NCBI GenBank assembly: GCA_013298715.1
Contig: JAAFIQ010000020.1
Coordinates: forward strand, 1-64,000
DNA from: Bacteroidota bacterium
GTDB taxonomy: Bacteria > Bacteroidota > Bacteroidia > B-17B0 > Aurantibacillaceae
Direction of reading: 5' to 3'
DNA length: 64,000 nucleotides
Both the position numbers and the translations under genes were made by a program. Positions 2,335-63,886 of this stretch are shown here, piece after piece (positions within the stretch are counted from its first letter, which is position 1; the number at the start of each line of letters is the position of its first letter). The notes beneath the pieces were generated by a model. It was not told the origin of the DNA. It did no database searches and worked only from the letters and a program-made list of their open reading frames with translations.

Positions 2335-2353
2335 AAAAATATAGGTTATAAAA

Positions 2354-2373
2354 GTAACAAATAATATTGTTAC
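2354..2373 (-). terminator. Candidate intrinsic terminator downstream of the MuiA-like gene
   Basis: Perfect 7-bp stem GTAACAA / TTGTTAC with a 6-base loop. On the minus strand it is followed by TTTTAT. It sits in the 62-base gap between the MuiA-like gene and panB, both on the minus strand, so it would separate the two units. The stem is AT-rich and the call is tentative. Confidence 0.4.
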
Positions 2374-2396
2374 GGTTTACTCTTAGTGAAAATTGA

Positions 2397-4121: not shown

Positions 4122-4123
4122 GA

Positions 4124-5029: not shown

Positions 5030-5090
5030 GCCTAAATATAATGAATAATTAATCCAAATATTTTATAGGCTTAATTCAACTTTTTTCTTC

Positions 5091-5098
5091 TATTTTTG
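5091..5098 (+). promoter_or_regulatory. Candidate -7 promoter element TATTTTTG of ispG
   Basis: TATTTTTG matches the Bacteroidota -7 consensus TAnnTTTG and ends 21 bases before the ispG ATG, which predicts a leader of about 15 bases. No clear -33 TTTG is seen. It also argues against a start at TTG 5096, which lies inside the element. Confidence 0.55.
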
Positions 5099-5119
5099 TT
5101 ATCTCTTCAAACAATAACC

Positions 5120-7060: not shown

Positions 7061-7109
7061 CAATTTTTTCACAATTTATTTATCGGAAATCAAACTTAGT
7101 TAGTCGAAT

Positions 7110-7129
7110 ATGCAAAGTTATTTTTGCAT
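7110..7129. other. Hairpin with embedded TATTTTTG in ispG-recQ gap
   Basis: ATGCAAA and TTTGCAT form a 7-bp stem around a 6-base loop. It lacks a good U-tract, so it is a weak terminator candidate for ispG. The element TATTTTTG (7119-7126) overlaps its right half and fits the Bacteroidota -7 consensus, 86 bases before recQ. The rest of the 152-base gap shows nothing further to me. Confidence 0.3.
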
Positions 7130-7212
7130 TATTCAAAATATTTTGTATATCTTTATAATAGATAAATAATTCCATTCACTCATTATAAATAGCAACTTAA
7201 TAACTAATACGC

Positions 7213-9423: not shown

Positions 9424-9447
9424 TTAATTTAATTAGTTCTTTTTAGC

Positions 9448-10089
9448 TTGAACACAATTTGTAGTACCGCATACTTGCCCAATTTACACTACTTGTTTTA
9501 TGTAATTAATAGCAACGAAATTACAATAGAACAATTTGAATTTTACGAAAAACAAAGTTTTAAAAATCGCACACATATTTTAACCGCTAATGGGGTTTTA
9601 AGTTTAACCATTCCTGTGCTAAACAATCATGGCAAATCGTGTGTAAAAGATATTAAAATAAGCTATAAAGAAAACTGGCAAAAGCAACATTGGGGCGCAA
9701 TTACAAGCGCCTACAAAAACTCTCCCTACTTTGATTTTTTTGAAGACGATTTCAAAGGATTTTATTCTCAAAAAATGGAGACGTTGCTCGATTTTAATAC
9801 CCAACAATTAACTACTATTTTAAAATTACTCCAACTAAAAAAAGAAATTAGTTTTACAAGTTCTTACAATTACAATATTCAAGATAAAATAGACACACGG
9901 CGTATAATTCATCCAAAACTAAGTACTAGTGTTGATAAAAACGTTACCGAAGCCCTTGCAAAACCTTATTACCAAACCTTTGGCTACAGACATGGTTTTA
10001 CGCCTAATTTAAGTTGTTTAGATGCTTTGTTTAATATAGGATTAACTACTAAAGAGTACCTAAGCTCCAATTTTGTTTTAGAAACTTAG
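9448..10089 (+). CDS. WbqC-family protein
   Basis: 213 residues matching the WbqC family: an opening 'AYLPNLHYLFYVINSNEITIE', a 'SFKNRTHILTANGVLSLTIPV' stretch and 'WGAITSAYKNSPYF'. Family members occur near O-antigen genes or as stand-alone copies, and their activity is not established in most genomes. The start is TTG at 9448, since no ATG or GTG precedes it before the in-frame stop at 9430. It lies 24 bases after recQ and is probably co-transcribed. Confidence 0.85.
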   Translation: MNTICSTAYLPNLHYLFYVINSNEITIEQFEFYEKQSFKNRTHILTANGVLSLTIPVLNNHGKSCVKDIKISYKENWQKQHWGAITSAYKNSPYFDFFEDDFKGFYSQKMETLLDFNTQQLTTILKLLQLKKEISFTSSYNYNIQDKIDTRRIIHPKLSTSVDKNVTEALAKPYYQTFGYRHGFTPNLSCLDALFNIGLTTKEYLSSNFVLET

Positions 10090-12040: not shown

Positions 12041-13592
12041 TCTTTAATTATTTTTCTAGTTATAATTTTATAATCTGCCGTAACTAATTTTAATAAATAA
12101 ACACCAGGGGTTAAATTACTAAGTACAATACCGCTTTGGTTATTTATAAATTCTATTTTTTTGTTTAACACAACCTCACCTAAATTATTAACTATTGTAG
12201 CGCTTACAACTTGATTATTTAAAATAGTACTTTGTAAGTTTAGCACCTCTTTTGCAGGTTGTGGGTACGTATTTATTTGGCTATTAGTTAAAATTTGTTC
12301 TTTTAAACCAACAGTAGCACAATAAAAACTACTGCTATCACAACCAGTACTATCATATTTTACAACCATGAATTTTCCAGGCGCTGTAGTGGCTTGATGG
12401 TAATAAGCTGCGATGTATCCTTTATCGCTTGTTTGAAAAAATGAATACAATGCAGACAAGTTGCCATTATTATCATTAATATCATTTGTGGAATAATATC
12501 TTTTTTTTATCAAATTACAATCTTTATCCAACAAAAGGATTTTGCCCATTAAGTCAAACGGTTTTGTTTTAATAAAGCTTGTATCCTGAATTCCTGCAAA
12601 AACAAGATTACCATTATTTAACTCAATAATATTATTATAAATATTATAGACACTTTTTTCGTCTAAATTTTGTTTTTGATAAATAATGGATAGATTATTG
12701 TCAAAAAGGAATTTAACAATGTAACCAGAAGACAATTCGTAACTGTTATAAAATTCCAAATTACTCATACTCCCACATGCTAATATTGAGCCATCCTTTA
12801 ATTGTTTTAAACATGATATGGCTCCAGCGGTATTAACAGGATAATTTTTTCGCAGTATAAAATTACCTAAACTATCGGTTACAACTAAATTGCTATATGC
12901 TGTCCACCAACTAGTATTTCCTATATATTGTATCCCGCCAACTAAGATTTTTTTGCTTACACTGTCTTCTAATATTGATAACCCTACTTGATAATTAGGT
13001 CCATTATGAGTGGGTTTATCAATTGCTTGTCTCCATAACTCATTTCCAACAGAATTAGTTTTAATAATTAATAACTTATTCTCTAAATTATCATAAATTG
13101 TACCAGTAATTAAAAATCCGTTATCTTTTGTCTTAGTAATATAATAAGGTACAACATTGTAATTAGTAGCGTAGTATTTTTTTGCCACACAGTATCTCCA
13201 TTAAAATTAATTTTTAAAAGCACTCCTAGGCATTTATTATTACTATCTATAACAGCTGTAGTTAAGTATATAAAATTTCCAATTTTATTGACCCAGTTAA
13301 TCCTTGTTGGATTATCAACATAAACAAATTTATGATTCCCATATTTCTTAACCCACTGTACCTGCCCGTCTTGGTTTAAACCCATAATGCACAACCTATT
13401 TGTTTCGAACCCACTTAAGGTATCAACGACTAAGCCTACGTGGACAAAATTATTAGGTGTACTTTCGGCAACCCCAAGGCTAAAGTGTGCTTTAGAATTC
13501 GGCAATACAATGTTACGCTTAAACCCACCTTGCCCGTAGTTAATCACTACAAGAAAGGTAAGTATAATAGTGTGCGTTATTTTTTTTAACAC
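12037..13592 (-). pseudogene. Frameshifted T9SS-sorted secreted protein, beta-propeller-like
   Basis: The upstream frame (start 13592) gives a signal peptide and 'LSGFETNRLCIMGLNQDGQVQW'. The downstream frame continues with repeated strands such as 'DNGFLITGTIYDN', 'LKQLKDGSILACGS' and 'TSDKGYIAAYYHQ', which are typical of beta-propeller-like surface proteins. It ends in a Por sorting domain (INTYPQPAKEVLNLQ ... TRKIIKE). The frames meet at seven T (13177-13183); one more A on the coding strand restores TGG CAA AAA AAA TAC. Its stop overlaps the next start (ATGA at 12037-12040). Confidence 0.8.
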
Positions 13593-13614
13593 CGTATTGT
13601 AAATTTATGAAAAA

Positions 13615-16463
13615 TTATTTCATTTTAATAATTTTATTGCTTTGTACTAATTCGTTTTTAACATAAGCGTTTAAAATATAAATACCAGCATCTAAATTAG
13701 TAAAAGGTACTTGCAGGTTACTCGTTCTTGTTAAATTACCTTGATAAACTTTTCTGCCCAAAGCATCAGTAATTATTACGTTTAATTCTTCATCTGTAGC
13801 CATGTTTGCAACGGCAAGGGTTATATTATTAGTGGTTGGGTTGGGGTAAACACTAACTAAATTTTCAACTTTACTTTCGTTTTGAGGCTCTGTTGTGTTT
13901 GCCATGCGTACCCCTTATTTTTACCATCAGGTAATACTCGTGGCTCAGCATAATTTATATCTTTAACTATTTTTAGCAAGGCTTTTGCGCCAGCGCTGCC
14001 CGGATTAGCATCTGTACTACTTACACTTGCAAAATAATTATACAAATTTTCATTGGTTAATAAGGCAAAGGCTTTGTTTGTTTCGTTATTTAAACTTACC
14101 AATTTTTCTAAATAATTACCATAGTCTAAATTACTAGCTTTAATAACTGTTATTAGGTTGTTAAGCTCTTTTGATTTATTAGCGCTTAAGTAAGCAAAAA
14201 ACAATTGTTCGTTTGCATTATCAATATTGGCTTTACTTAGTTGTAAGGTTTTAATTAGACTATCTTGGCTTTGCACCAAGCTATCTGTGGCAAAGTAATT
14301 TAATTTTTCGGCTACTGCACTTTTTAGGTTAGATGTGGTAATGGCAACATAAGCATCTAACTCATCGCGTTGGCTAAACTTTTTTTCGTTTTGTTTGGCA
14401 TTAATTTGGTTGCGTATGCCGTTACTTAAACTAATGGTTTGCAAGGTTTGCCAGACGCTTGCGCTAACGGGTGCATTAAGTTCGTGTATTTCCTTAATAT
14501 GCCCACTTGGTATGTTGCTTTTAGTAAAGTAAGCAGTTAATGCCGCATCGCTTAAATATGGGCTTTTGCTCTCTAATAAATTTTTTAAATTACCATTGCT
14601 AATATTGCTGTTTATAGCGGCTACCAAAGTAGTTGTATTGCCTCCATCAATTAAGTTGCTGGCACTTGTTTTCGCTAAATTTGATTGTAACTGCGCATTA
14701 TTAATTGAAGAGTTAAGGTTAGTTAACTTATTACAGCTTGGGCATGGGTTAGGTGGTGTAATCGTTGGTGGGCATTGGTTGGAAGCATAAGGTATTGAAC
14801 CAGATACAGATACACTAACATCGCTTAAATCTGGTTGTGGAATGGGTTTTGCATTGGCATTACTATTGGTTACGTGAAGGTAATTTTTAGCGCTTGTTAG
14901 TTCAATAAAAAACTGGTATTCGCCTCCAGAATTAAATACAGGTGCAGCGTATCTATTTCTAACTAAAAACGAGGGGCTCGAACCAGCACTTGTACCTTGA
15001 TTTCGATCTACCGTTGGTGGTTGCGAAGAGCTTGTTAATGCAATGTCATATAAATTTGGAATAGTGGTAAAATTGTTACAGTTCATTCTTAACCCATCGC
15101 TTATATTAGTAATACCACTGTTATTATCTGTAGCAATTATACCAACAGTTAAATCGCTAAAATTATTTCGGTAAATATTATGCGCTCCATTTTGACTATT
15201 GTTTACGGTGATACCCGAACAAGGATTCCAGCTAAAAGGTGGTAGTGTTTTATTGAAAGAGTTATTGCGTACATTGTAAAATTTACAATTATTTAAATAT
15301 AAACCATTCGAGTATAGAAGCGAAGGTGTAACAACTTGAGACGGTAATGTGAAATAATTATCTTCAATTATTAAATTATTTGTATTATTTATGTAAATAC
15401 TATTATTGTAATTGTTTATATAATTTGTGTTTTTTAAGGTTGCCAAATTTAAAGGATTAGTATTATCAATCCTTATACCTTCTTTAAAACCTTTAATTTC
15501 GCTGTTAACACTTCCTAGTTTATCTAAAGTGAATTTAGAATCAAAACTTAAAATACCTATATTGTGAGGATTAGGATTTGCTGGGGTGCTATTTTCGAAT
15601 TTACACCCTAAGAACTGAACACCATGTATATCAAATAAAAGCACCCTGCTAAGTGGTTGTGCATTACCATTAAGGTTACCAGTAATTTTAAAATTACAGT
15701 TTTTAAAAAATCCACCATTCGCCTGATTAAACTGGCTTTGATAATAGATATATTCAACGTCCCTTATATTGTTAATGAAATTAGCATTATCGCACATAAT
15801 TATACCACCTGTAGTATTTAGGTTATAGCCTCCATTTGAATTTAGCAGGTAAGCATTTATTGCAGATTTTGCATTTGTAAGCGTGCCGCCATTTTTAACT
15901 TCCACCTGACCTTGGTATAATAAATTTTGCGGTGTCCCATAACCACTTCCTTCTATGTAAATGCCATCCCATAAACCACTTTTACTCCAAGTGGTAATTT
16001 CGCCAGCATCCACAATAAGTTTAGCGCCTTTTTCAACTATAATGCGGCCTTGTTTTAGCATTCTTATTTTACAAGTAATATTTAAAGTGTTGCCAGTTTT
16101 TACAATAATGTCCTCATACATTTGAATGTCAAAGTCCCAGGTTTCATTTGCCGTTATATTCCATGTGTTAATATGGTCGCTTGGTAAGTCGGTTGCAAAA
16201 TCTCTTATCGTGTTTAATCTCATATTTCTGATCCTACGCCCCATTTGAAGCGGAGAATACCATCCAATACCAAATATATCAGAAGCACCCATACAGTTGT
16301 TACTCTCGAAAGATAAGTTAGTTTGAGGTACCTCATAGCATGATGCGCAAGCATTTATTGGCGGACTTGAAGTAATAGTAATCGGGCAGGTATTTAGTTG
16401 CTTGTAATAGCAGAATAGTTGACCCGAAAGGAAGACATCAGATAGATAATCATTTTCTACTGC
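13615..16463 (-). pseudogene. Large right-handed beta-helix T9SS surface protein, frameshifted and 5'-truncated
   Basis: An 811-codon frame (first ATG at 16292) encodes parallel beta-helix repeats (about 'GNTLNITCKIRMLKQGRII', 'GAKLIVDAGEITTWS', 'LWDGIYIEGSG'), a Pro/Cys linker (QCPPTITPPNPCPSC) and a helical region. The Por sorting domain (SVYPNPTTNNITLAV ... NKIIKMK) lies in another frame; the break is near GGGG at 13911-13914, where five G would join them. Open frame continues upstream of the ATG to 16463 with no start codon and then meets TAG (16464-16466). The true N-terminus and signal peptide are therefore missing. Confidence 0.75.
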
Positions 16464-22967: not shown

Positions 22968-23935
22968 TGGACAAAACAATCTTGGAAAAACGTATTTTAA
23001 TAACTGGCGGAGCCGGATTTATTGGTAGTAATATTATTGACTATCTTATGAGTATTGGTCATAAAAATATTACAGTACTTGATAATTTAGAAACCGGTTC
23101 ATTAACCAATATTCAACAACACCTGTCAAAAATTAATTTTATACAAGGTGATATAACAAATTATGAAGCTTGTTTAACCGCTACTAAAAATTGCGATGTT
23201 GTTTTACATCAAGCGGCTTTAGGCAGCGTGCCTCGAAGTATTGCTAATCCCACTAATACGCATGCTACTAATTTAAGTGGCTTTTTAAATATGTTAGAAG
23301 CGTGTAAAGCAAATCAAGTAAAACGTTTTGTTTATGCCTCGTCTTCGTCAGTTTATGGAAGCGACGAAACTTTACCTAAGCAAGAACATAAAACAGGGCA
23401 ACCGTTATCGCCCTATGCCATTACAAAAGTAGCTAACGAATTGTATGCAAATGTATTTTATCAACTGTATAATTTAGAAGTAATAGGTTTGCGTTATTTT
23501 AATGTATTTGGACCAAAACAAAATCCTGCTGGACCTTACGCAGCTGTAATCCCTATTTTTATTACCAATTGCTTAAATAACGAACCTTCTTTTATTTTTG
23601 GAGATGGCACTAACCAACGTGATTTTACGCACGTTAGCAATGTAGTACAAGCAAACATATTAGCCGCTACTACTACTAATACCAATGCCTTTGGAGATGT
23701 ATTTAATATTGCTTTTGGCGGTTCTATTGCCATTAATGAATTGTACAAATTAATAAAAACAAAATTAAATTCCGATTTACAAATACAATATAAAGCGCCT
23801 CGTATGGGTGAAATAAAAAATAGTTTTGCCGCTGTTGATAAAGCAAAAGAAATATTAGGTTACCTCCCTCAAATAAATTTACAAGAGGGTATTAATGATA
23901 CGCTTAATTGGTATCAAACATATTTTAAAAAATGA
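22967..23935 (+). CDS. SDR UDP-sugar epimerase, WbpP/TviC-like (UDP-GlcNAc C4 epimerase)
   Basis: 322 residues of the extended SDR family. NAD-binding [12 protein letters not shown] is at about 10-21, and the catalytic Ser-Tyr-Lys set is YASSSSVYGS with YAITK. LRYFNVFGPKQNPAGPYAAVIP and GDGTNQRDFTHV resemble WbpP/TviC-type UDP-N-acetylhexosamine 4-epimerases more than GalE. It probably supplies UDP-GalNAc or its uronic acid. The GTG start overlaps the upxY stop, and the ATG of hisH overlaps its own stop. Confidence 0.82.
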   Translation: MDKTILEKRILITGGAGFIGSNIIDYLMSIGHKNITVLDNLETGSLTNIQQHLSKINFIQGDITNYEACLTATKNCDVVLHQAALGSVPRSIANPTNTHATNLSGFLNMLEACKANQVKRFVYASSSSVYGSDETLPKQEHKTGQPLSPYAITKVANELYANVFYQLYNLEVIGLRYFNVFGPKQNPAGPYAAVIPIFITNCLNNEPSFIFGDGTNQRDFTHVSNVVQANILAATTTNTNAFGDVFNIAFGGSIAINELYKLIKTKLNSDLQIQYKAPRMGEIKNSFAAVDKAKEILGYLPQINLQEGINDTLNWYQTYFKK

Positions 23936-24543
23936 TAGTAATTATTGATTACGGTATTGGAAACTTAGCTTCTGTACTCAATATGTTTAAAAAAATTGGG
24001 ACAAAAGAAGTGTGTATCTCTAACGATGCTTCTGTTATTTCAAAAGCCGATAAACTATTATTACCTGGCGTTGGCGCTTTTGATGCGGCTGCCATTCAAT
24101 TAGAAAAATCTAACCTAATAAAACTGATTGATGATAAAGTTTTAAATCAAAAAGTTCCCTTACTTGGTATTTGTTTAGGAATGCAATTGCTTACCAAGCG
24201 CAGCGAAGAAGGTGAAAAAAATGGTTTAGGATATATTGATGCAGAAACCGTAAAGTTTAATTTAGATCCTAGCTTAAAATTAAAAGTACCTCACATGGGT
24301 TGGAATTACATCAACGTAAAACAAGCTAATCCACTCATCGAAATGGAAACTAAATCTCGTTTTTATTTTGTGCATTCATATTATGTAAAATGTTTTGATG
24401 AACGTCAATCGCTTGCCACCTGCCAGTTCGGTACAGAGTTTACTTGCATGGTAAATAAAGATAATGTGTTTGGCGCACAATTCCATCCCGAAAAAAGTTT
24501 GAAATTCGGAATGAAATTATTAGAAAATTTTTCAAAATTATAA
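23932..24543 (+). CDS. HisH2-type glutaminase subunit for sugar amidination
   Basis: Class I glutamine amidotransferase that hydrolyses glutamine and passes ammonia to a HisF-like partner. Its 203 residues have the nucleophile in GICLGMQLL (about Cys82) and the His-Glu pair in AQFHPEKS. It has no histidine-biosynthesis neighbours. In P. aeruginosa O-antigen and flagellin-glycan loci such HisH2/HisF2 pairs feed ammonia to WbpG/PseA to make acetamidino sugars. Here WbpG homologues occur at 32.7, 38.1 and 60.8 kb. Its partner gene is unusually about 840 bases away, beyond an inserted cassette. Confidence 0.88.
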   Translation: MIVIIDYGIGNLASVLNMFKKIGTKEVCISNDASVISKADKLLLPGVGAFDAAAIQLEKSNLIKLIDDKVLNQKVPLLGICLGMQLLTKRSEEGEKNGLGYIDAETVKFNLDPSLKLKVPHMGWNYINVKQANPLIEMETKSRFYFVHSYYVKCFDERQSLATCQFGTEFTCMVNKDNVFGAQFHPEKSLKFGMKLLENFSKL

Positions 24544-25384: not shown

Positions 25385-26143
25385 ATGGCGCTTAAACGCA
25401 TAATTCCCTGCCTCCTCTACGATGGTGTTGGACTCGTAAAAACGGTCAAATTCAAAAACCCGTCTTACATTGGCGATCCTATTAACGCTATAAAAATTTA
25501 CAACGAAAAAGAAGTAGATGAATTAATTGTTATCGATATTAATGCCTCTAAACAAAAGCGTAAACCTAACTTCGATAAAATAGCTGATATGGCAAGCGAA
25601 GCCTTTATGCCCTTTGCTTATGGCGGTGGTGTAAAAACATTTGAAGACTTTGCCACACTTTATAAAATTGGTGTAGAAAAAGTAATTGTTAACTCATTAA
25701 TTCAAGAAAACCCCGAAGTAATACAAAAAGTTGTAGCACATTATGGCGCACAAGCGGTAGTAGCTTGTATCGATTTTAAAAAACCATTATTTGGAGCAAA
25801 AGCACCTTACTCTTACATTGGTAATAAAATAAAAGGCTCCTTAGTTGAATATGCAAAATACCTAACCGAAATAATTGGAGTAGGCGAGTTAATGTTATAC
25901 AGTGTTGACAACGACGGCACTTGGGAAGGATACGATACCGAAATAACTTCGCAATTATTAAACGCTGTTGAAGTTCCCGTAATTGCCTGCGGTGGTTGCG
26001 GAAGTATAGAGCACTTAAAAACAATTTTATATACGACTAATGCAAATGCCGCCGCAATTGGTAGTATGGCAGTTTATAGTAAAAAAGGAATGGGTGTATT
26101 AATTAATTTTCCTGTACGAGAAACAGTAATAAACGAATACTAA
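25385..26143 (+). CDS. HisF2-type ammonia-channel subunit for sugar amidination
   Basis: 252-residue (beta/alpha)8 barrel. It opens RIIPCLLYDGVGLVKTVKF, whereas histidine-pathway HisF has CLD at that place, so the catalytic Asp11 is replaced by Leu. YIGDPINAIKIYNEKEVDEL, FAYGGGVKT and VIACGGCGS follow. This is the HisF2/WbpZ pattern: it relays ammonia rather than cyclising imidazole. It is the partner of the HisH2 gene upstream. The ATG at 25385 follows immediately on the repeat array. Confidence 0.88.
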   Translation: MALKRIIPCLLYDGVGLVKTVKFKNPSYIGDPINAIKIYNEKEVDELIVIDINASKQKRKPNFDKIADMASEAFMPFAYGGGVKTFEDFATLYKIGVEKVIVNSLIQENPEVIQKVVAHYGAQAVVACIDFKKPLFGAKAPYSYIGNKIKGSLVEYAKYLTEIIGVGELMLYSVDNDGTWEGYDTEITSQLLNAVEVPVIACGGCGSIEHLKTILYTTNANAAAIGSMAVYSKKGMGVLINFPVRETVINEY

Positions 26144-32689: not shown

Positions 32690-33847
32690 ATGAAAACGTG
32701 TAAACGCTGTATATACAATGAAACAATACCAAAAATCACTTTTAACGAAGAAGGTGTCTGTAATTATTGTGTACAATTTGATGAAATGAATGTTCAATAT
32801 CCAATAGATGCTACAGGGTATAAGCATTTAGAAAAATATGTTGAGCAGATGAAGATTGACGGTAAGGGAAAGGCTTATGATGTTGTTATTGGAGTAAGTG
32901 GGGGTTGCGATTCATCTTACATGTTACATTTAGCCACTAAGGTATTTGGGTTACGTGTTGTTGCAGCGCATTTTGATAATACCTACAACTCTCGCATTGC
33001 CGTTGAAAATATTAATGTATTTATTACCAAACTAGGAATTGATTTAGAAACCTATGTTGTAGATAACGAAGAATTTCACCGCATTTTTAAATCGTTGTTA
33101 AAGGCATCAGTTCCTGAAACGGAGTCCTCAACTGATTTAGCTTGCGCAACGGTTTTATATAAGGTAGCAGAAAAACATAAAGTAAAGCATATTTGGGAAG
33201 GTCATTCCTTCAGAACAGAAGGAATTTCTCCTCCAGGGTGGTTTTATATGGATGCAAAATACATCAGTCAAATTCACAAACGATTTGGCGATGGAAAAAT
33301 TAAATCACTTCCTCTTTTGTGGCTTACAAAATGGATGAAATGGATGGTGGTTGACAAAATAAAAAAATTTAGACCACTTTATTATTTAGACTATAATAAA
33401 GAACAGGTTAAAAAGTTTTTAGTTGACGATTACGGCTGGCAATGGTATGGTGGGCATCACATGGAAAATAGAAGTTCTTATTTTGTAAACAATTATTACC
33501 TGCCTACTAAATTTGGAATTGATTTAAGGTGGTGTGAGTTTTCTGCATTAATACGTAGTGGACAACTAAAACGAGAAGAAGCTTTAGAAAAAATAAAAAT
33601 TCCAAAACCATTTGAAAAAGACATATTGGTTGAAATAAAACAACGCCTTGGTCTATCTGATAAAGAATGGGAGGATATAATGAATCTACCTCCAAAGCAT
33701 TATACTGATTATCCTACTTACAAAAAAACATTTGAACGTATGCGCCCTTTCTTTTTTATGTTGCTAAAATCAGGATACGTTACACGAAGTTTTTACGACA
33801 AGTTTTGTGTACTGAAGGAAGAGCCTAAGAAACTTCCTGTAAAATAA
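32690..33847 (+). CDS. N-acetyl sugar amidotransferase, WbpG/PseA type (copy 1)
   Basis: ATP-dependent enzyme that converts a sugar N-acetyl group to acetamidino with ammonia. It has 385 residues. Two CxxC pairs are near the N-terminus (CKRC, about 4-7; CNYC, about 24-27). The adenylation PP-loop is VSGGCDSSYML (about 69-79). GLRVVAAHFDNTYNS and IWEGHSF follow. It has no glutaminase domain, so it needs the HisH2/HisF2 pair. It is followed directly by a glycosyltransferase. Confidence 0.9.
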   Translation: MKTCKRCIYNETIPKITFNEEGVCNYCVQFDEMNVQYPIDATGYKHLEKYVEQMKIDGKGKAYDVVIGVSGGCDSSYMLHLATKVFGLRVVAAHFDNTYNSRIAVENINVFITKLGIDLETYVVDNEEFHRIFKSLLKASVPETESSTDLACATVLYKVAEKHKVKHIWEGHSFRTEGISPPGWFYMDAKYISQIHKRFGDGKIKSLPLLWLTKWMKWMVVDKIKKFRPLYYLDYNKEQVKKFLVDDYGWQWYGGHHMENRSSYFVNNYYLPTKFGIDLRWCEFSALIRSGQLKREEALEKIKIPKPFEKDILVEIKQRLGLSDKEWEDIMNLPPKHYTDYPTYKKTFERMRPFFFMLLKSGYVTRSFYDKFCVLKEEPKKLPVK

Positions 33848-36225: not shown

Positions 36226-38124
36226 ATGTGTGGCATTGCTGGAATATATAAACTTAATTCATCTTCTGTTAGTTTAAATAGTATTCAACAGTTTACTGAT
36301 GCTATGAAACATCGTGGTCCCGACGGAAGTGGTTATGAGTTATATGCCAACAATACTTTAGCATTTGGCCACCGTCGTTTATCTATCTTAGATTTAAGCG
36401 AAGCGGGCAAGCAACCGCTTTCATTTCTTAATCGTTACCACATTACTTATAATGGCGAAGTGTATAATTTTTTAGAAATAAGAAACGACTTACAAGCGAA
36501 AGGTTACACATTTAAAACAGATACCGATACCGAAGTTATTTTAACAGCCTATCACGAATACGGAAAAGACTGCTTATTTAAATTTAATGGGATGTGGGCA
36601 TTTGCTATTTACGATGAGCATACACAAGAATTATTTTTAGCAAGAGATAGATTTGGGGTTAAACCTTTGCATTATGTTTATCTTCCTAATCAACTGTTTG
36701 CCTTTGCCTCCGAAACTATTGCATTTAAACATTTAGAAGGATTTCAACGTCAATTTAATCAACAACATTTATTAAGGGCTATTCAAGCACCACATGTTGT
36801 AGAAGCAAACGGGCAAACTATTTTTGAAGAAATAGCACAAGTATTACCAGGACATCAAATTACAATTTCTGCGAATAAGCAATTACAAATTAAATGTTGG
36901 TGGAATACTGCCGATCATCTATTAAAAGTACCAAGCGATTATCAAATTCAAGTACAACAATTTAAAGAACTATTTTTCGACGCTTGCAAATTGCGAATGC
37001 GTAGTGATGTGTCTATTGCCTCTGCATTAAGCGGTGGTATTGATTCGAGCTCGGTTTATTGTACTTTACAACAATTTAATTCAGGTTCAATTACACGTAC
37101 ACCAAGTGATTGGCAAAAAGCATTTGTTGCTACTTTTCCCAATACAAAAATGGACGAACGTCAGTATGCCGAAAAAGTAATTGAACATACTAAAGGAAAT
37201 GCTGTTTATATCACTCCCGATTATTCGAATTTAATAAACGATATTGAAAGCGCTACAAAATTATTAGACGCTATTATTTCTAATCCCATTATTGCCATTA
37301 CAGATATTTATAAAGCCATGCGTCAAAACGGCATCACCGTTTCGTTAGATGGGCATGGAGCCGATGAATATGCCTTTGGTTATAATTCATATGTGTTACA
37401 AAGTTTTTATGAAGCTTTAGAAACTGGAAACGAAGCAAAAGCAATCAGCATGTCAAATACGGTGGCTAATTTATCACCATTGTATAATGCAGAACAATTA
37501 ATGAAAACGTATTATGATAATAACTCAATAAAATCTAAGCTTAAAAAAAGTATTAAGTCATTTGTATCTAATGAAAAGAAAGTAGAGAAAGTGTATGCAA
37601 ACACTTGGTTTACCGACCCAACTTCTTTAGAAATTACAAAAGTGTTTACAAATCCATTTACAGGCATTACTAAAACCTTATTCGACGATTTTCATTATAC
37701 TAGCTTACCAATTAATTTACGTGATTTTGATAGAGCCTCTATGCAAAATAGTATCGAAGTGCGCATGCCTTTTATGGATTATCGTTTAGTATGTTTTATG
37801 TTTTCGTTACCCGAAGAAAGTAAATTAGGTGGTGGATTTACAAAACGCATTATTCGCGATGCAATGAAAGGAATATTACCCGATTCTATTCGTACCCGCA
37901 CTTTAAAAATAGGAATTGGTTCACCCATTGCCGAATGGATGCAATCGCATTTAAAAGATTTTACGTTAGATTATTTGCACTCGCAACAATTTCATAAATT
38001 AAGTTTCGTAAATCATGCTAAGGTAAAAGATGAAGTTGAACAGTTATACAAAACGAATGCGTTTAATACAAACAATGCTTCACAAACTTGGAGCCTCATT
38101 AACGCCATATTAATAGATGAGTAA
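36226..38124 (+). CDS. AsnB-type glutamine-hydrolysing amidotransferase (copy 1)
   Basis: 632 residues. The class II glutaminase domain has nucleophile Cys2 (MCGIAGIYK), RHRGPDGSG-like HRGPDGSG and YNGEVYNFLEI. The synthetase domain has PP-loop ALSGGIDSSSV at about 266-276 and FMDYRL. In polysaccharide loci such enzymes, like WbpS, are thought to amidate uronic-acid carboxyl groups rather than make asparagine. The context supports that. It overlaps the second WbpG-type gene by 8 bases. Confidence 0.88.
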   Translation: MCGIAGIYKLNSSSVSLNSIQQFTDAMKHRGPDGSGYELYANNTLAFGHRRLSILDLSEAGKQPLSFLNRYHITYNGEVYNFLEIRNDLQAKGYTFKTDTDTEVILTAYHEYGKDCLFKFNGMWAFAIYDEHTQELFLARDRFGVKPLHYVYLPNQLFAFASETIAFKHLEGFQRQFNQQHLLRAIQAPHVVEANGQTIFEEIAQVLPGHQITISANKQLQIKCWWNTADHLLKVPSDYQIQVQQFKELFFDACKLRMRSDVSIASALSGGIDSSSVYCTLQQFNSGSITRTPSDWQKAFVATFPNTKMDERQYAEKVIEHTKGNAVYITPDYSNLINDIESATKLLDAIISNPIIAITDIYKAMRQNGITVSLDGHGADEYAFGYNSYVLQSFYEALETGNEAKAISMSNTVANLSPLYNAEQLMKTYYDNNSIKSKLKKSIKSFVSNEKKVEKVYANTWFTDPTSLEITKVFTNPFTGITKTLFDDFHYTSLPINLRDFDRASMQNSIEVRMPFMDYRLVCFMFSLPEESKLGGGFTKRIIRDAMKGILPDSIRTRTLKIGIGSPIAEWMQSHLKDFTLDYLHSQQFHKLSFVNHAKVKDEVEQLYKTNAFNTNNASQTWSLINAILIDE

Positions 38125-39274
38125 TACTAAAGCATATCAACAATGTACGCGTTGCGTAATGGATACAACAGCAACCGAAATTACATTTGATAAAAATGGT
38201 GTGTGTAATTTTTGTACCGACTTTGAAACACTAGCGCATAAAACTATTTGGCGACCAATTGATGTGCGTTTAAAAGAGCTTGAAGATGGCGTGGCAAAAA
38301 TTAAAGCACTCGGAAAAAATTCAAAGTACGATTGTTTGGTTGGTTTAAGTGGCGGTGTTGATAGTTCTTATATTTGTTATTGGGTTAAGCAGGTTGGCTT
38401 ACGTCCACTTGTAGTTCATTTTGATAATGGTTGGAATAGCGAATTAGCCGTGCAAAACATCAATAATATTATTTCAAAAACAGGTTTTGATTTATATACT
38501 TATGTAATTAATTGGGAGGAGTTTAAAGATTTACAACTAGCATATATAAAGGCTTCTGTAATAGATATTGAGGTACCTACAGACCAATTAATTTTTGCCA
38601 CCTTATTTAAAATTGCCAGAAAGTATAAAATTAAAAGTGTCATCAATGGTAATAACATTTCATCTGAGGCGATATTGCCACACTCCTGGTATTTTCCAGA
38701 TAAGTTAGATATTGTTAATCTAACAAATATTCATAAAAAATTCGGGACAAAGAAATTGGTTAATTTTCCGAGTTTAAGTTTAACCAAGCAATATATAAAT
38801 TCAACTTTGTTCTCAATGTTCTCTATTTCACCTTTAAATTTATTAGATTATAATAAAGAAGAAGTAAAAAAATTATTAATGAAAGAGTTTGGTTGGCGTG
38901 ATTACGGTGGCAAGCATTATGAATCAGTGTTTACAAGGTTTTATCAAGGATATATTTTACCAGTAAAGTTTAATGTAGATAAACGAAAGGCACATTTAGC
39001 TACACTAGTTGCAGCAAAAATAATTACAAGAGAAATGGCACTTGCAGAATTAAAAAACTCAACATACGATTTAAACTTGCAAAAGCAAGATTATAACTAT
39101 GCACTAAAAAAATTTGATATAACTGAACAGGAGTTTGAAACGTTTATGAAACAAACTCCAATTGCGCATAAGGAATATGGCACACAATGGGATAAAAAAG
39201 AATTCAGGAAATATTATATTTTTAAACGAGTAGTAGGTCCTTTTTTAAAGTTTATAAAACCATTCGTTAAATAA
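38117..39274 (+). CDS. N-acetyl sugar amidotransferase, WbpG/PseA type (copy 2)
   Basis: 385 residues with the same layout as copy 1: CxxC pairs CTRC and CNFC, PP-loop LSGGVDSSYICYW at about 77-89, and PLVVHFDNGWNS. It has no glutaminase domain. The two copies differ strongly outside the motifs, so they probably act on different sugars. It lies directly against the next glycosyltransferase with no gap. Confidence 0.9.
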   Translation: MSNTKAYQQCTRCVMDTTATEITFDKNGVCNFCTDFETLAHKTIWRPIDVRLKELEDGVAKIKALGKNSKYDCLVGLSGGVDSSYICYWVKQVGLRPLVVHFDNGWNSELAVQNINNIISKTGFDLYTYVINWEEFKDLQLAYIKASVIDIEVPTDQLIFATLFKIARKYKIKSVINGNNISSEAILPHSWYFPDKLDIVNLTNIHKKFGTKKLVNFPSLSLTKQYINSTLFSMFSISPLNLLDYNKEEVKKLLMKEFGWRDYGGKHYESVFTRFYQGYILPVKFNVDKRKAHLATLVAAKIITREMALAELKNSTYDLNLQKQDYNYALKKFDITEQEFETFMKQTPIAHKEYGTQWDKKEFRKYYIFKRVVGPFLKFIKPFVK

Positions 39275-52636: not shown

Positions 52637-54301
52637 ATGAAAATAATAGCAGAAAGCGCCTACAATCATCAAGGTAATTTTGAATATCTTAAACAGCTTG
52701 CAACAGCCGCTAAGCTGGCCAATGCAAATTATTTTACGGTTCAAATGATGAACGTAGAGGAGTTTTGCACAAAAGATTATTCTAAATACCAACTCTATAA
52801 GGATACTGAATTTTCGGCTGAACAATGGCTTCAATTGTTCAATTTTTGTAAAACACTTCAATTAGATTTAATCCCCTGCACCTTAGAAAAATCTTCATTT
52901 GAGTTAGCATATAATTATGGGTTTAGACTTGTTAAAATTCACGGAACAGATTTAACGAACAAACCATTATTAGATTATATTAAATCAAAAGTCGATTGCA
53001 AAATTATTTTAGAAACGCAGTGCAGTACCGATTTTGAAATTAAATTATGTGTTGAAAATTATAAAGATATTATCGAATGTCTTTTTCATGGCTTTAGTAA
53101 TTATCCTACCGAGCCTAACGAGCATAATCTGTTAGCACTTACTTATCTTAAAAAGCAATACCAATTAAAAACTGGCTTTGCCGATCATAGCCTAGACACT
53201 CAAATAATTCCATGTATGGCAATGGCCTTGGGTTGCGATTATTTAGAAAAACACATTACCTTACGTCGTAATGATAGGCAGTTTGACTATCAAGTTTCAT
53301 TAGAACCATTTGAATTTGCTACAATGGTAAATTCGGTTGCACATTACGCACAAACGCTGGGTAAGCCAGTTAAGCACCCAGTAAAATCAGAAAAAGGATT
53401 TCGTAATATTTTATTCAAAAAATATTTAGGCAATGGTGTGTTTAAACGCGATAATGAAGGAAAAACATTTATAGAAAGCGAAATTCGTACGTTTGATAAG
53501 ACAAATGTAACCGCTGCACTTATAGCCCGTTTAAAATCGAAGCGGTTAAAACTAAAAGTACTAAAACCTTTTGGAGAGAACGAGTCCATTGTTTCGCTTT
53601 ATAAGCGCTTAAAACAAAATTGCAAAAGCATAAAACATATACAACTTGCTACGAGTTATCTGGCAGAAGACGAACCATTAGTTCAACTATTTGAACAAAA
53701 GCAAATCCCACATTATGCCGGACACCCAGAAAGCGTGATTGATAGGTTATTAGAAATTGCTTACAAAAATAAATCAGCTTCTGTGTTTAGAGTTACTGGC
53801 GATAACCCATTCACCGACCCAGTATTGATGGATAAAATGGTGAAGATAATGTTAGAAAAAGATGTTGATTATGTGCGTGTAAATAATGTTCCTTTTGGCG
53901 TAAGTGCCGAACTTTTTAAAACAAGTTACTTATGGGATTTATACCTTCGAATGGACGATCCTTTTGTAAGCGAGTATTTATCTTGGTTTGTGCTTAATGA
54001 TAGCTCTTGTAAAAAAGCATGTATTGAATTTAGTTGCGAAAAGCCATTTGCTAAGTTTGTTAATTTAAGCATTGATTATCCTGAAGATTATGAGTACGCA
54101 ACCTCAGTGCTTAACTCCATCAATAAAACACCTTTTGAAACAATTAATTTAGAGGATATAATTAACAACATAACCGATAAGCATGTCGTAGATCTAACTA
54201 AATTTATTAAACTACCAGATGGAATTAGTATATTGTATAGCGATTACATGAAACTAATAGACGAAACAAATTATATTTACAAAGAAACATTTTCAATTTA
54301 A
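52637..54301 (+). CDS. Fusion of NeuB-type nonulosonate synthase and SpsF-type cytidylyltransferase
   Basis: 554 residues. Residues 1-265 are the NeuB barrel: IAESAYNHQGN, VKIHGTDLTNKPLL, GFSNYPTEPNEHNLL, TGFADHSLD and EKHITL (about 204-209). The C-terminal SAF domain of normal NeuB is absent. Residues from about 290 form a cytidylyltransferase-like domain: ALIARLKSKRLKLKVLKPFG replaces the usual QARMGSTRLPGKVL nucleotide loop, then ESVIDRLLEIA and VFRVTGDNPFTDP. It would make a nonulosonic acid and activate it to CMP-sugar in one polypeptide. The altered loop leaves activity open. Confidence 0.8.
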   Translation: MKIIAESAYNHQGNFEYLKQLATAAKLANANYFTVQMMNVEEFCTKDYSKYQLYKDTEFSAEQWLQLFNFCKTLQLDLIPCTLEKSSFELAYNYGFRLVKIHGTDLTNKPLLDYIKSKVDCKIILETQCSTDFEIKLCVENYKDIIECLFHGFSNYPTEPNEHNLLALTYLKKQYQLKTGFADHSLDTQIIPCMAMALGCDYLEKHITLRRNDRQFDYQVSLEPFEFATMVNSVAHYAQTLGKPVKHPVKSEKGFRNILFKKYLGNGVFKRDNEGKTFIESEIRTFDKTNVTAALIARLKSKRLKLKVLKPFGENESIVSLYKRLKQNCKSIKHIQLATSYLAEDEPLVQLFEQKQIPHYAGHPESVIDRLLEIAYKNKSASVFRVTGDNPFTDPVLMDKMVKIMLEKDVDYVRVNNVPFGVSAELFKTSYLWDLYLRMDDPFVSEYLSWFVLNDSSCKKACIEFSCEKPFAKFVNLSIDYPEDYEYATSVLNSINKTPFETINLEDIINNITDKHVVDLTKFIKLPDGISILYSDYMKLIDETNYIYKETFSI

Positions 54302-57116: not shown

Positions 57117-57617
<501 letters not shown>

Positions 57618-58863: not shown

Positions 58864-60732
58864 ATGTGCGGAATATCAGTCCTCTTTAATAAAAATAACA
58901 TCACATCCCAACTTTATAATGAGTTTATAAATTCATTACAAAAAATTAATCATCGCGGACCAGATGATGAAGGTGTTGTTTTAATTAATACATTAACCAA
59001 CGATTATAAAATTGTAAAAACAAAACAAACACATGTAGCTGTTACCAATTTGGTTACGATTGATGAAATTGAGTTAGAAAAATATAATTTAATTTTAGGA
59101 CACAAACGATTAAGTATTATTGATTTAAGCGTTAATGGCCATCAACCAATGCATGCTAGCAATGGAAATTGGATAGTGTTTAATGGCGAAATTTATAATT
59201 ATATTGAATTAAGAGAAGAGTTAAAAAAGTACAATTGCACTTTTAACACCAATTCAGATACTGAAGTTGTTTTAGAAGCTTACCGAATTTGGGGAACAGA
59301 TTGCTTTAATAGATTTAACGGCATGTGGAGCATTATTATTTGGGATGCCTCACAAAAACTAATAATCATAAGTAATGATCGATTTGGTGTAAAGCCGCTT
59401 TATTATTATGCCAATCAAAATGGATTTAATTTAGTTTCTGAAACAAAACAATTTCAAGCTTATTCCACTATTCAAAAAAAAATTAATCACAAGCACGTTG
59501 ATGAATTTGCAAAGTTTGAATATGTTGATATTGATGATGAAACCATGTACGAAGGTATTTACAGGTTTAAAAAATCACATTTTATTACCATTAATCCTTT
59601 AAACTACAATTTATCTAAAATTAAAAACGAGCAACTGCCATACTATTCGCTAAAGCAAACACAAATTAAAATTTCTGAAACAGAGGCTCAAAATCAGTTT
59701 AGAGAATTATTGTATGATGCAGTTAAAATTAGGATGCGCGCCGATGTAGATTTTGGTTTTGCACTCTCTGGTGGAGTAGATTCTAGTTCAATCCTCTATA
59801 CTGCCAGAAATATTATAAATACGGAGAGTAAAACAACAAAATTACTTGGTTTTTCGGCAGTATTTCCTGGGTACGGCGAGGATGAGTCTAAATTCGTGAA
59901 AATTGTTGAAAACGATTTACCATGTAAAACTTCTTATTCAAACGCATTAGAAGATTTTAGTTTTGCAAACTTTGAAAAACACATTTACCATCAAGATGAA
60001 CCTGTTCATGGAACTTCTTATTTTGCGCAATGGAGTGTTTATAAAGTGGCACAACAAAGCAATATTAAAATTTTATTTAATGGCCAAGGTTCAGATGAAG
60101 TGTTTGCAGGCTACCACCATCATTTTTATAGGTATTGCAGGCAGCTACTAATGTCCGGAAAACTCATTGCTTACTTTAGTTTAGTAAAACAATTTGCCGA
60201 ATTAAAAAGTATTTCAACAGCCTACATCCATAAAACTGTTTTTAACGAGGTTAAATTAAAATCTAAAATTTTGCTCGGTATTCAAAAGTTCGATCATGCC
60301 ATTGTAAAGTATTGGAATAACATTAACACACTCGATGAAATGCTAGTAAGAGATTTTGATACCTTTCAGCTCCCAACTTACTTAAGAGCAGATGATAGAG
60401 ATAGTATGAGTTTTAGTATAGAATCAAGGCATCCATTTATGGATTATAGATTAGTAGAGTTTGGCTATTCTTTACCAAACACTATGGTTATAAAAAACGG
60501 GTGGCAAAAGCATTTACTCAGGCAAAGTATGCACGAAATGCCAGCCGAAATTCGATTTAGAAAAGATAAAAAAGGATTCACATCACCACAAACTGCCTGG
60601 ATTGAAAAATATAAACCAGAGTTTGAGTCTAATTTAATTTATAACGAAAAACACTTTGGAACTAAAACCCCATCCAAAGATGCCTTTTTTAATTATGTAT
60701 TAGGAACATGGTTAAAAGTTAATGGTTTTTAA
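58864..60732 (+). CDS. AsnB-type glutamine-hydrolysing amidotransferase (copy 2)
   Basis: 622 residues. Nucleophile Cys2 is in MCGISVLFN; HRGPDDEGVV and FNGEIYNYIEL are glutaminase motifs. PP-loop ALSGGVDSSSILY lies at about 300-312, and FMDYRLVEF near residue 520. The glutaminase domain carries an extra insertion of about 25 residues (about 40-70) compared with copy 1. A carboxamide on a sugar acid is the likely product; asparagine synthesis itself cannot be ruled out. Confidence 0.88.
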   Translation: MCGISVLFNKNNITSQLYNEFINSLQKINHRGPDDEGVVLINTLTNDYKIVKTKQTHVAVTNLVTIDEIELEKYNLILGHKRLSIIDLSVNGHQPMHASNGNWIVFNGEIYNYIELREELKKYNCTFNTNSDTEVVLEAYRIWGTDCFNRFNGMWSIIIWDASQKLIIISNDRFGVKPLYYYANQNGFNLVSETKQFQAYSTIQKKINHKHVDEFAKFEYVDIDDETMYEGIYRFKKSHFITINPLNYNLSKIKNEQLPYYSLKQTQIKISETEAQNQFRELLYDAVKIRMRADVDFGFALSGGVDSSSILYTARNIINTESKTTKLLGFSAVFPGYGEDESKFVKIVENDLPCKTSYSNALEDFSFANFEKHIYHQDEPVHGTSYFAQWSVYKVAQQSNIKILFNGQGSDEVFAGYHHHFYRYCRQLLMSGKLIAYFSLVKQFAELKSISTAYIHKTVFNEVKLKSKILLGIQKFDHAIVKYWNNINTLDEMLVRDFDTFQLPTYLRADDRDSMSFSIESRHPFMDYRLVEFGYSLPNTMVIKNGWQKHLLRQSMHEMPAEIRFRKDKKGFTSPQTAWIEKYKPEFESNLIYNEKHFGTKTPSKDAFFNYVLGTWLKVNGF

Positions 60733-60776: not shown

Positions 60777-62603
60777 ATGTGCGGAATATTTGGCATTATT
60801 GCCCAACAAACTATTAATAGTAACGATTTAAAACTACTTGTTAAGCATTCAAAACAACGTGGTAAAGATTCGAGTGGATTACTTTTTTTTGATGTAAACT
60901 GCTATTCTATTAAGCGGGCAGATTATAGTATTGATAAGTTATTAAATCAAACACAAGTAAATAATTCAAAAGTAGTTTTTGGTCATAGTAGGTTAATTAC
61001 TAATGGGCTTGCAGACAATCAACCTGTTTTAAGGGATAATATCTTTGTATTACACAACGGAATTATTGTTAATGAAACCGAGATATGGGAAAAACTCACC
61101 ATACCTCGGAAATTTAAAATTGATACAGAGGCAATTGCTGGTATTACGATAGAGCATCTCAATAAGGGAAATCCTATTTCTACCTTGGCTGAGAGTATAC
61201 TTCAAAAATGCAAAGGTGTTGTTTCGTGTGCTATTGTTATTCAAGATTTAGGAAAGTTGCTCCTAATATCAAATAACGGCAGCCTTTACACTGGAATAAA
61301 AAGTGGTACCACTTATTTCGCATCCGAAAAATTTGCGCTTAGCCAAATTAACTGCTCACAAATTTCTCAACTTTTAAACAGCCATAAAATTATTGATATA
61401 CCAATAGCAACCAATTTAACTTATAAGTTGAATGACTACAATACCAGAACTGAAAATTTGATTCCTGAATTTAAATTTGATAAAACGCAAGAAAAATTAT
61501 TAGAATATAAAAAACACACCCTGCGCAGATGCACAAAATGTATCTTGCCAGAAACCATGCCCCACATTCGGTTCAACGAACAAGGCATTTGCAATTATTG
61601 TTTAAACTATAAATTAAGAAATAAACCAAAACCTAAGGAGGAATTATTTAAATTAATAGAACCATACAGAAAAAAAGGAGAATTAGAATGTATTGTACCA
61701 TTTTCTGGCGGAAGAGACAGTTGTTATGGTTTGCATTTAATTATAAAAGAACTTGGGCTTAAGTCTGTTACCTATACTTATGACTGGGGAATGGTAACCG
61801 ATTTAGGGCGAAGAAATATAAGCAGAATGTGTGCTGAACTGGGAGTAGAGAACATCATCATAGCCGCTGATATTTCGCTTAAACGTAAAAATATAAAAAT
61901 GAATTTAGAGGCATGGCTAAAATCTCCACATTTAGGAATGATGGCCATGTTAACAGCCGGAGATAAACATTTTTTTAGATATGCTGAAGAAATGAAAAAA
62001 CAAACCGGCGTTAATTTAAATTTATGGGGAATAAATCCTTTAGAAGTTACGCATTTTAAAACAGGTTTTTTAGGAATTAAACCAGATTTTGAAGAAGAAA
62101 GGGTGTATTCAAACGGCGTAATTAAACAACTCCGTTACCACAAAAAAAGATTTGGTGCAATGCTAGATAGCCCGGGTTATTTTAACTCTTCGCTTTGGGA
62201 TACACTATCTGGAGAGTATTACAGAAGTTTTAATAAGAAAAAAGATTATTACCACATATTTGATTACTGGCGCTGGGATGAGGATTTAGTAAATTCAACC
62301 TTAATAAATCAATACGATTGGGAGCTAGCCCCGGACACTAAAACCACTTGGAGAATTGGGGATGGTACAGCGGCATTTTATAATTATGTTTACTATACCG
62401 TTGCCGGATTTACTGAGCACGATACATTTAGAAGTAACCAAATTCGTGAAGGACAAATTACACGAGAAAAAGCTTTAGAGTTAGTTGAAGATGAAAATCA
62501 GCCGCGTTACCAAAACATTAGGTGGTATTTAGATACATTAGGAATGGATTTTGAGCGGGTTATAAAAGTGGTAAACGCAATAAAAAAATTATATTCTGAA
62601 TAA
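60777..62603 (+). CDS. Fusion of class II glutaminase and WbpG-type sugar amidotransferase (copy 3)
   Basis: 608 residues. Residues 1-235 are an Ntn glutaminase: Cys2 in MCGIFGIIAQQ, KQRGKDSSGLL, FGHSRLITNG and VLHNGIIVNE. From about 250 a WbpG-type synthetase follows: CTKC and CNYC pairs, PP-loop PFSGGRDSCYGLHL (about 307-320), then TYTYDWGMVTDLGRRN, WGINPLEV and FDYWRWDEDL. This enzyme can make its own ammonia, so it should not need HisH2/HisF2. Stand-alone WbpG copies occur at 32.7 and 38.1 kb. The substrate is unknown. Confidence 0.85.
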   Translation: MCGIFGIIAQQTINSNDLKLLVKHSKQRGKDSSGLLFFDVNCYSIKRADYSIDKLLNQTQVNNSKVVFGHSRLITNGLADNQPVLRDNIFVLHNGIIVNETEIWEKLTIPRKFKIDTEAIAGITIEHLNKGNPISTLAESILQKCKGVVSCAIVIQDLGKLLLISNNGSLYTGIKSGTTYFASEKFALSQINCSQISQLLNSHKIIDIPIATNLTYKLNDYNTRTENLIPEFKFDKTQEKLLEYKKHTLRRCTKCILPETMPHIRFNEQGICNYCLNYKLRNKPKPKEELFKLIEPYRKKGELECIVPFSGGRDSCYGLHLIIKELGLKSVTYTYDWGMVTDLGRRNISRMCAELGVENIIIAADISLKRKNIKMNLEAWLKSPHLGMMAMLTAGDKHFFRYAEEMKKQTGVNLNLWGINPLEVTHFKTGFLGIKPDFEEERVYSNGVIKQLRYHKKRFGAMLDSPGYFNSSLWDTLSGEYYRSFNKKKDYYHIFDYWRWDEDLVNSTLINQYDWELAPDTKTTWRIGDGTAAFYNYVYYTVAGFTEHDTFRSNQIREGQITREKALELVEDENQPRYQNIRWYLDTLGMDFERVIKVVNAIKKLYSE

Positions 62604-62674: not shown

Positions 62675-63886
62675 ATGCATTTCGTAATTGTTTCATATAC
62701 CTTTCCTCCCTCAAAAGAAATTGGTGGAAGACGTTGGGCAAAATTCAGTAAAGAACTCAGAAATGCAGGTCTCCAAGTGAGTGTTATTTGTTCAAAGGAA
62801 AATGATTATAAAGAATCCGATTTAGAGGAGTATGCTGGTATAACCATTAACCACTTACCAAAATATTATCCAGTTTGGTTAGAGGGACATGCAAAAACAC
62901 TGTTCGAAAAAATCGCGTATAAGTTGTGTGTTTCCGTTTTGTCAAAATTTATAAAAAATAATATTTTTGATAGAGGTGTTGCATGGAAAAAACCATTAAT
63001 TGCAACATTAAATAAAATAAATAAATCAAAACCAATTGATGTTTTAATAGTTTCTGGTGCACCATTTTCATTGCTTTATTATGCCAGTAAGTTTAAACTT
63101 GAAAACAAAAATGTGGTATATATTGCTGATATAAGAGATCCGTGGACCTGGGGTAATTTATTTGGAATACCAAATATGTCTGCGCAGAAAAAGCAATTTC
63201 AAGAGTACATGGAATTAACTGCAATTAAAACCTGTGATATGTTTGTTTACCCAACTAAAAACATGGGAGATTTTTTATTGCAGAAGTATAAAGACTACAC
63301 GGATAAATTTTATTTATTACCACACGCCTACGAGCCCGATAAATTTAAAAATATTGTAAAAACAAATCCTAAAAAAGGATTTATATATGGAGGAACACTT
63401 TATAGCGCAATTGATGATTATATTAAAGATTTGGAAGTTATTGTTAATCAAAATTTAGATACTACGTTTAATTGGGAGATATACACAAGCACAGAGTACC
63501 CGCTAATTAGCTCTTGGTTTGCCAATGGTCGGATAAAAGTTTATGGATTAATACCTGAAACAGAACTTTTTCAGAAAATTGCAAATGCTAAAGCGTATCT
63601 TGCATTCTTTCCTCCTAGCGATAAAGATTTAATATCAACCAAATTTTTTGAAATTGTTTATATAGGTACACCAATTATTTATGTTGGTGAAGAGGGCGAA
63701 GTAGCTAGATTTATTAGAGAGAATAAATTAGGTGTACATATTTTACCAAAAAATTTGATGGATGAACTACCAAAATATATAGATGGAGAGATTACCGTTG
63801 AAAATAATAGTTTTGATGTAACAAAGTATTCGTTTACAAATGTTACAAAAGAATTTTTAAAAATACTACAACATAAATTTAATTAA
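62675..63886 (+). CDS. Glycosyltransferase family 4
   Basis: 403 residues. The start 'FVIVSYTFPPSKEIGGRRWAK' is the Pro-Pro-Gly-Gly loop of WbuB-like GT4 enzymes; YIADIRDPWTWGN follows. The donor half has FIYGGTLYSAID, FQKIANAKAYLAFFPPSDKDLISTK-type spacing (Lys/Phe-Glu site at STKFFEIVYIG) and YVGEEGEV. It transfers an unknown sugar. Preceded by a 71-base gap holding only a weak 6-bp hairpin (62636-62652). Confidence 0.87.
   Translation: MHFVIVSYTFPPSKEIGGRRWAKFSKELRNAGLQVSVICSKENDYKESDLEEYAGITINHLPKYYPVWLEGHAKTLFEKIAYKLCVSVLSKFIKNNIFDRGVAWKKPLIATLNKINKSKPIDVLIVSGAPFSLLYYASKFKLENKNVVYIADIRDPWTWGNLFGIPNMSAQKKQFQEYMELTAIKTCDMFVYPTKNMGDFLLQKYKDYTDKFYLLPHAYEPDKFKNIVKTNPKKGFIYGGTLYSAIDDYIKDLEVIVNQNLDTTFNWEIYTSTEYPLISSWFANGRIKVYGLIPETELFQKIANAKAYLAFFPPSDKDLISTKFFEIVYIGTPIIYVGEEGEVARFIRENKLGVHILPKNLMDELPKYIDGEITVENNSFDVTKYSFTNVTKEFLKILQHKFN

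Follow-up and report, generated by a model that had tools for sequence, protein, structure and literature searches.

Can a single polypeptide amidinate a sugar with an ammonia supply of its own? The known WbpG/WbuX/PseA systems (TIGR03573), working with HisH2 and HisF2, consist of three separate proteins. The question is raised by one gene of the window (that is, the whole 64,000-nucleotide stretch of a Bacteroidota contig that was analyzed), in which an earlier note on this DNA had recognized a WbpG-type synthetase fused to a class II (Ntn) glutaminase, an AsnB-like solution to the same chemistry. The reading frame is open, begins with MCGIFG and lies within a long co-directional run of polysaccharide genes (Table 1).

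Table 1. Position of the fusion gene, its parts, its neighbours in the window and related features in other loci.
Sequence	Feature	Position	Strand	Evidence or remark
Window	HisH2-type class I glutaminase, would feed unfused NASATs	23932..24543	+	TIGR01855 239 bits, over cut-off
Window	HisF2/AglZ-type partner	25385..26143	+	NF038364 307.6 bits, just below cut-off 310
Window	Unfused canonical NASAT 1	32690..33847	+	TIGR03573 242.8 bits, over cut-off
Window	AsnB-like gene	at 36226
Window	Unfused canonical NASAT 2	38117..39274	+	TIGR03573 281.5 bits, over cut-off
Window	NeuB-like domain fused to cytidylyltransferase-like domain	52637-54301
Window	KDN-9-phosphate phosphatase	57117-57617		over cut-off
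Window	AsnB-like amidotransferase with true Asn_synthase domain, directly upstream of fusion	58864..60732	+	PF00733 4.6e-57
Window	Glutaminase-NASAT fusion, 608 aa	60777..62603	+	ORF, domain matches, AlphaFold model, fold matches
Window	N-terminal domain, class II (Ntn) glutaminase, about residues 1-236	60777..61484	+	GATase_6 7.6e-9, GlmS 1e-18, Z 22.6 to 1xff
Window	C-terminal NASAT domain, residues 246-608	61512..62600	+	TIGR03573 136 bits; 8wex Z 22.2 over 306 residues
Window	Tetracysteine CxxC-CxxC (C252, C255, C272, C275), predicted zinc site	61530..61601	+	83/83 invariant; LpNASAT zinc site (PMC10607449)
Window	PP-loop SGGRDS (310-315), ATP site	61704..61721	+	83/83 invariant
Window	Glycosyltransferase-like gene, directly downstream of fusion	62675..63886	+	cluster c28
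Window	AsnB-like gene	from 63938 past window end
L086	VimE-like deacetylase near fusion	12744-14051	-
L095	VimE-like deacetylase near fusion	4049-5452
L116	Full fusion, IMG/VR	7035-8852
L117	Full fusion, IMG/VR	8001-9818
L118	NASAT half alone, IMG/VR	7983-9101
L012 (G035)	Apparently broken fusion	1336-2259
L133	Canonical NASAT with N-terminal glycosyltransferase-like domain	954-2777
L134	Canonical NASAT with N-terminal glycosyltransferase-like domain	1962-4301	-
L135	Canonical NASAT with N-terminal glycosyltransferase-like domain	366-2771

Each half gave the type of domain that had been announced. At the N-terminus (residues 1 to about 240), Pfam matched GATase_6 and GATase_7, and the NCBIfam models of GlmS (67 bits), PurF (50 bits) and AsnB (43 bits) matched in their glutaminase portions; the glutaminase itself spans residues 2-209. 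Residues 251-589 matched the WbuX model TIGR03573 with 136.2 bits (E 2e-39), below the family cut-off of 203.2 bits; the remaining fusions found in 49 genomes likewise stayed under 203 bits. Pfam found no Asn_synthase domain (PF00733) in the fusion, while the neighbouring AsnB-like gene matched this model clearly, and the same search found no sugar-isomerase (SIS) domain. Among solved proteins, the N-terminal half came closest in sequence to GlmS and the C-terminal half to LpNASAT (8wex).

Glucosamine-6-phosphate synthase is the name given to the protein in some records, such as that of the Agrobacterium plasmid NZ_CP045856, and the GlmS model does match residues 2-247. However, this match covers the glutaminase third only, no SIS domain follows, and the score of 67 bits compares with a cut-off of 418. 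GlmS was therefore excluded, and there is next to no chance that the fusion is this enzyme or a relative of it. AsnB was also excluded, as the fusion is without an Asn_synthase domain.

An AlphaFold model of the fusion was built from 46 sequences of the window and the loci (mean pLDDT 89.6, pTM 0.89). It bore out the fold of both halves. With VIA-align, the first domain superimposed on PurF and GlmS with Z scores of about 23-24 over about 215 residues (rmsd 2.5); the glutaminase domain scored 23.9 against PurF and 22.6 against the GlmS glutaminase 1xff, and AsnB gave Z 18.9 over 185 residues. Residues 246-608 matched LpNASAT best (Table 1; rmsd 4.4), so that neither by profile nor by fold did the C-terminal part group with asparagine synthetase. 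In the model, the relative placement of the two domains is confidently predicted (pTM 0.89). As in AsnB, an N-terminal Ntn glutaminase and a C-terminal PP-loop ATP enzyme are carried by one chain, but the fusion PP-loop domain lacks PF00733 and the glutaminase is closer to GlmS and PurF by both profiles and fold. Thus, the comparison with AsnB made in the earlier note stands for the architecture only.

Catalytic residues were compared in 83 fusion homologues. On the glutaminase side, C2 (the nucleophile after Met1), R72, N94-G95 and D116 are invariant, so no member has lost the catalytic residues. The four cysteines of the predicted zinc site are equally invariant, and the SGGRDS motif (S310-S315), present in all 83, was also found in 101 of 102 reading frames of the fusion lineage. 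The earlier note had drawn attention to an unusual Arg-Asp-Ser-Cys PP-loop. The loop is an ordinary SGGxDS in which x is arginine throughout the fusion family, and the cysteine that follows is present in 75 of the 83 homologues and is thus not essential. Since x varies freely (V, I, L, C, T, R or A) among canonical NASATs, the idea that the loop signals new chemistry was dropped.

The fusion is not a local oddity: among 84,980 species genomes, up to 493 loci were found to encode a relative, the weaker of which may be other glutaminases. The best 80 of these 493 all matched across both domains with about 62-79% identity, which argues against a chance joining; among them, L105 is in two reading frames and a few others are cut by contig ends. 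In three GC-rich loci (L083, L089 and L095) the gene was skipped by ORF picking and was fully covered by tblastn. Judged by record titles, the hosts belong to Bacteroidota, Pseudomonadota, Campylobacterota, Spirochaetota, Bacillota and Bdellovibrionota, with metagenome-assembled genomes (MAGs) from several more phyla. More distant fusions (41-49% identity, with a longer linker) were found in other genomes of the window's phylum.

In a maximum-likelihood tree, all 30 fusions tested fell into one clade (100/99), which sits on a long branch and includes one unfused phage-type copy. Canonical NASATs formed a separate clade (100/100) holding 32 of their 34 rows. LpNASAT was not placed and several partial rows were long-branched, so only the split between these two clades is used here. 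This split indicates that the NASAT half is a sister lineage, and not WbpG with an extra domain. The fusion of an Ntn glutaminase and a synthetase in one chain was upheld, and the assignment of the synthetase to the WbpG branch was not.

Several unusual copies were met during this survey. A full fusion (55% identical, catalytic residues all kept) is encoded on two near-identical IMG/VR contigs, L116 and L117, which also carry the gene for a terminase large subunit (phrog_2, 3e-26); it is probably a phage-borne sugar amidine synthetase. A third IMG/VR contig, of 119 kb and probably also from a phage (L118), has a NASAT half that belongs to the fusion clade (70% identical) but stands alone, without glutaminase, next to nucleotide-sugar genes. 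In L012, a transposable element has apparently broken the fusion, leaving the residues from about 360 behind transposase-like sequence. Three canonical NASATs (L133, L134 and L135) carry N-terminal glycosyltransferase-like domains, hinting that amidination may be coupled to sugar transfer. Finally, MAGs labelled Brevundimonas and Bryobacterales (L112 and L113) have identical NASAT proteins in the same gene order; at least one of these bins is thus probably contaminated.

Does the fusion depend on the HisH2/HisF2 pair? In the window, the two unfused NASATs reported earlier were confirmed, and they share the locus with the fusion and with HisH2 and HisF2 genes that the earlier note had not listed. 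Both ammonia strategies therefore coexist here, as the earlier note had said. A third canonical unfused NASAT of the same genome is on another contig. Of 49 genomes that carry the fusion, 23 contain a canonical NASAT besides (above the TIGR03573 cut-off) and 26 have the fusion only. HisF2 over the NF038364 cut-off was detected in 19 of the former 23 and in none of the latter 26 (Fisher p 5e-10, with no correction for relatedness or for incomplete MAGs). HisF2 thus tracks canonical NASAT and not the fusion, and its absence from the fusion-only genomes indicates that the fusion does not need the pair. The expectation that fusion genomes lack HisH2/HisF2 outright was dropped, as the pair coexists with the fusion where canonical NASAT is also present; in genomes with the fusion only, the survey agreed with it.

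These counts also bear on a reading in which the glutaminase half is regulatory or redundant, the NASAT half being fed by HisH2/HisF2 where present. The window and 19 of the 49 sampled genomes do have HisF2, and the stand-alone NASAT half of L118 would fit as well. The lack of HisF2 over the cut-off in all 26 fusion-only genomes, the conservation of every glutaminase residue in 83 of 83 homologues and the failure to detect HisH in Taylorella asinigenitalis (see below) make this reading very doubtful. We consider it likely that the fusion is an N-acetyl-sugar amidine synthetase that works as one chain, uses glutamine and ATP, and has an independent ammonia source.

The surroundings of the gene give indications on its acceptor. 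In many phyla, the usual order is fusion, GT4 glycosyltransferase, PglC, PglD, DegT aminotransferase and PglF. GT4 is present in 60 loci, in 52 of them at most 3.5 kb from the fusion. This synteny with bacillosamine genes suggests that the adjacent GT4 adds the amidinated sugar onto a bacillosamine-type first sugar. In about 15 loci, a gene for a VimE-like UDP-diacetamido-glucuronate deacetylase (104-161 bits, under the cut-off) is found close to the fusion. In the window, the GT4-bacillosamine block is replaced by other genes; the glycosyltransferase-like gene downstream belongs to a cluster (c28) that also adjoins the fusion in L036, L039, L040 and L052, from several Bacteroidota. The window also holds a NeuB-like domain without its C-terminal part, fused to a cytidylyltransferase-like domain. 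After it come another NeuB-like gene and a gene for a KDN-9-phosphate phosphatase; these genes probably form a nonulosonic acid pathway.

The fusion could also be a PP-loop enzyme that acts on some other acceptor (thiolation, or modification of nucleosides or peptides) and stands in polysaccharide loci by chance. Against this speaks the block that it forms with GT4 and bacillosamine genes, which is conserved between distant phyla. The weak QueC/TilS-like PP-loop similarity of the group and the copies on probable phage contigs would be in keeping with such an enzyme. As the best fold match is moreover a sugar enzyme (8wex), we regard it as highly improbable.

Taylorella asinigenitalis ATCC 700933 (L086), whose O-chain was solved chemically by Vinogradov and colleagues in 2008 (as cited in PMC3250509), has the fusion as the sole NASAT of its genome. 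No HisH was found there at E <= 1e-5 by a search that was positive in 14 of 14 control genomes, and no HisF at E <= 1e-20. No NASAT was found in a 1.7-Mb relative of the same genus group. The genes of the O-antigen locus are, in order, PglC, NeuD/PglB-type acetyltransferase, aminotransferase, GT4, Wzx-like, fusion and Wzy-like. Beyond the Wzy-like gene come a VimE-like deacetylase and an acyltransferase (opposite strand), then a 4,6-dehydratase. The fusion is thus surrounded by PglC/PglD/PglE/PglF-like genes, a bacillosamine module, and the genome also encodes a TviB UDP-GlcNAc 6-dehydrogenase over the cut-off (686 bits). From this gene set, a repeat composed of QuiNAc4NAc and amidinated GlcNAcA is predicted. 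The O-chain is reportedly [3)-QuiNAc4NAc-(1->3)-GlcNAmA-(1->], with an amidine and no uronamide, and would match this prediction.

The same strain helps to weigh the reading in which the fusion makes a uronamide, the primary amide at C6 of a uronic acid that AsnB-like enzymes are thought to form, instead of an acetamidine. Both reactions are ATP- and glutamine-dependent amidations, the NASAT half forms a divergent clade, and UDP-sugar dehydrogenases occur in 12 fusion loci. However, by profile and fold the PP-loop domain is of the amidine-making NASAT kind. AsnB-like genes adjoin the fusion in the window and occur in 21 of 78 fusion loci, and the true Asn_synthase domain beside the fusion indicates that uronamide chemistry has its own enzyme. 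Moreover, no AsnB is present in the 20-kb locus of T. asinigenitalis, whose O-chain reportedly has an amidine and no uronamide. A uronamide product is therefore unlikely. Nevertheless, with a NASAT domain below the TIGR03573 cut-off and in a separate long-branch clade, the fusion might use a different substrate from canonical NASATs or even make a different bond.

Domains, residues, fold, family spread, HisF2 independence and synteny were computed; from them we infer a reaction, its substrate, an ammonia tunnel and a bound zinc. C2, exposed after removal of Met1, would hydrolyse glutamine in the Ntn domain, and the ammonia would reach the C-terminal PP-loop domain without leaving the protein. 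This domain would adenylate an activated amino sugar at its N-acetyl oxygen, converting ATP to AMP and PPi, as was proposed for LpNASAT (PMC10607449). Ammonia would then displace the adenylated oxygen, turning acetamido into acetamidino. The substrate of most members is probably a hexosamine or hexosaminuronate; in T. asinigenitalis it is probably UDP-GlcNAcA or its lipid-linked counterpart. The adjacent GT4 would then add the product as second sugar, behind a bacillosamine-type starter. In the window, the fusion would contribute one amidine to a complex surface polysaccharide, next to two NASATs fed by HisH2/HisF2.

LpNASAT of Legionella pneumophila (PDB 8WEX, PMC10607449) shares the fold of residues 246-608, the Cys4 zinc site and SGGxDS with the fusion, but lacks a glutaminase domain, reads SGGKDS and is about 22% identical over aligned residues. 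The WbpG/WbuX/PseA systems match the same family model and, by inference, share the reaction, whereas the fusion is one chain, below the cut-off and in its own clade. The GlmS and PurF glutaminases have the same Ntn fold and Cys/Arg/Asn-Gly/Asp site, but are joined to a SIS or PRTase domain instead of a PP-loop synthetase. GMP synthetase (PMC13329287) and NAD synthetase are also PP-loop amidotransferases with fused and split forms, but GMPS has a class I and NadE a nitrilase-type glutaminase. The function of the family was described as little known in the 2023 LpNASAT structure paper (PMC10607449). In the literature searched, we found no reconstitution of NASAT activity and no description of the glutaminase-NASAT combination or of its HisH/HisF independence. 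The chemistry and both domains are of known kinds.

Altogether, we lean towards a distinct and widespread class of HisH2/HisF2-independent sugar-amidine synthetases, of single origin from a GlmS/PurF-type glutaminase and a non-WbpG NASAT, travelling in a GT4-bacillosamine cassette. N-acetimidoyl sugars are known from E. coli O118, O145 and O151 (PMC9912281). Public records list the fusion as glucosamine 6-phosphate synthetase, 7-cyano-7-deazaguanine synthase or hypothetical protein, so that O-antigen typing probably predicts amidino sugars too rarely. With its ammonia source built into one chain, the fusion would be far simpler to assay and to study structurally than WbpG with HisH2 and HisF2 as three proteins, and T. 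asinigenitalis offers a natural background without detectable HisH. If this reading is true, the fusion, GT4 and bacillosamine starter genes form a transferable cassette, from which an amidine would be predictable on the second sugar of the repeat.
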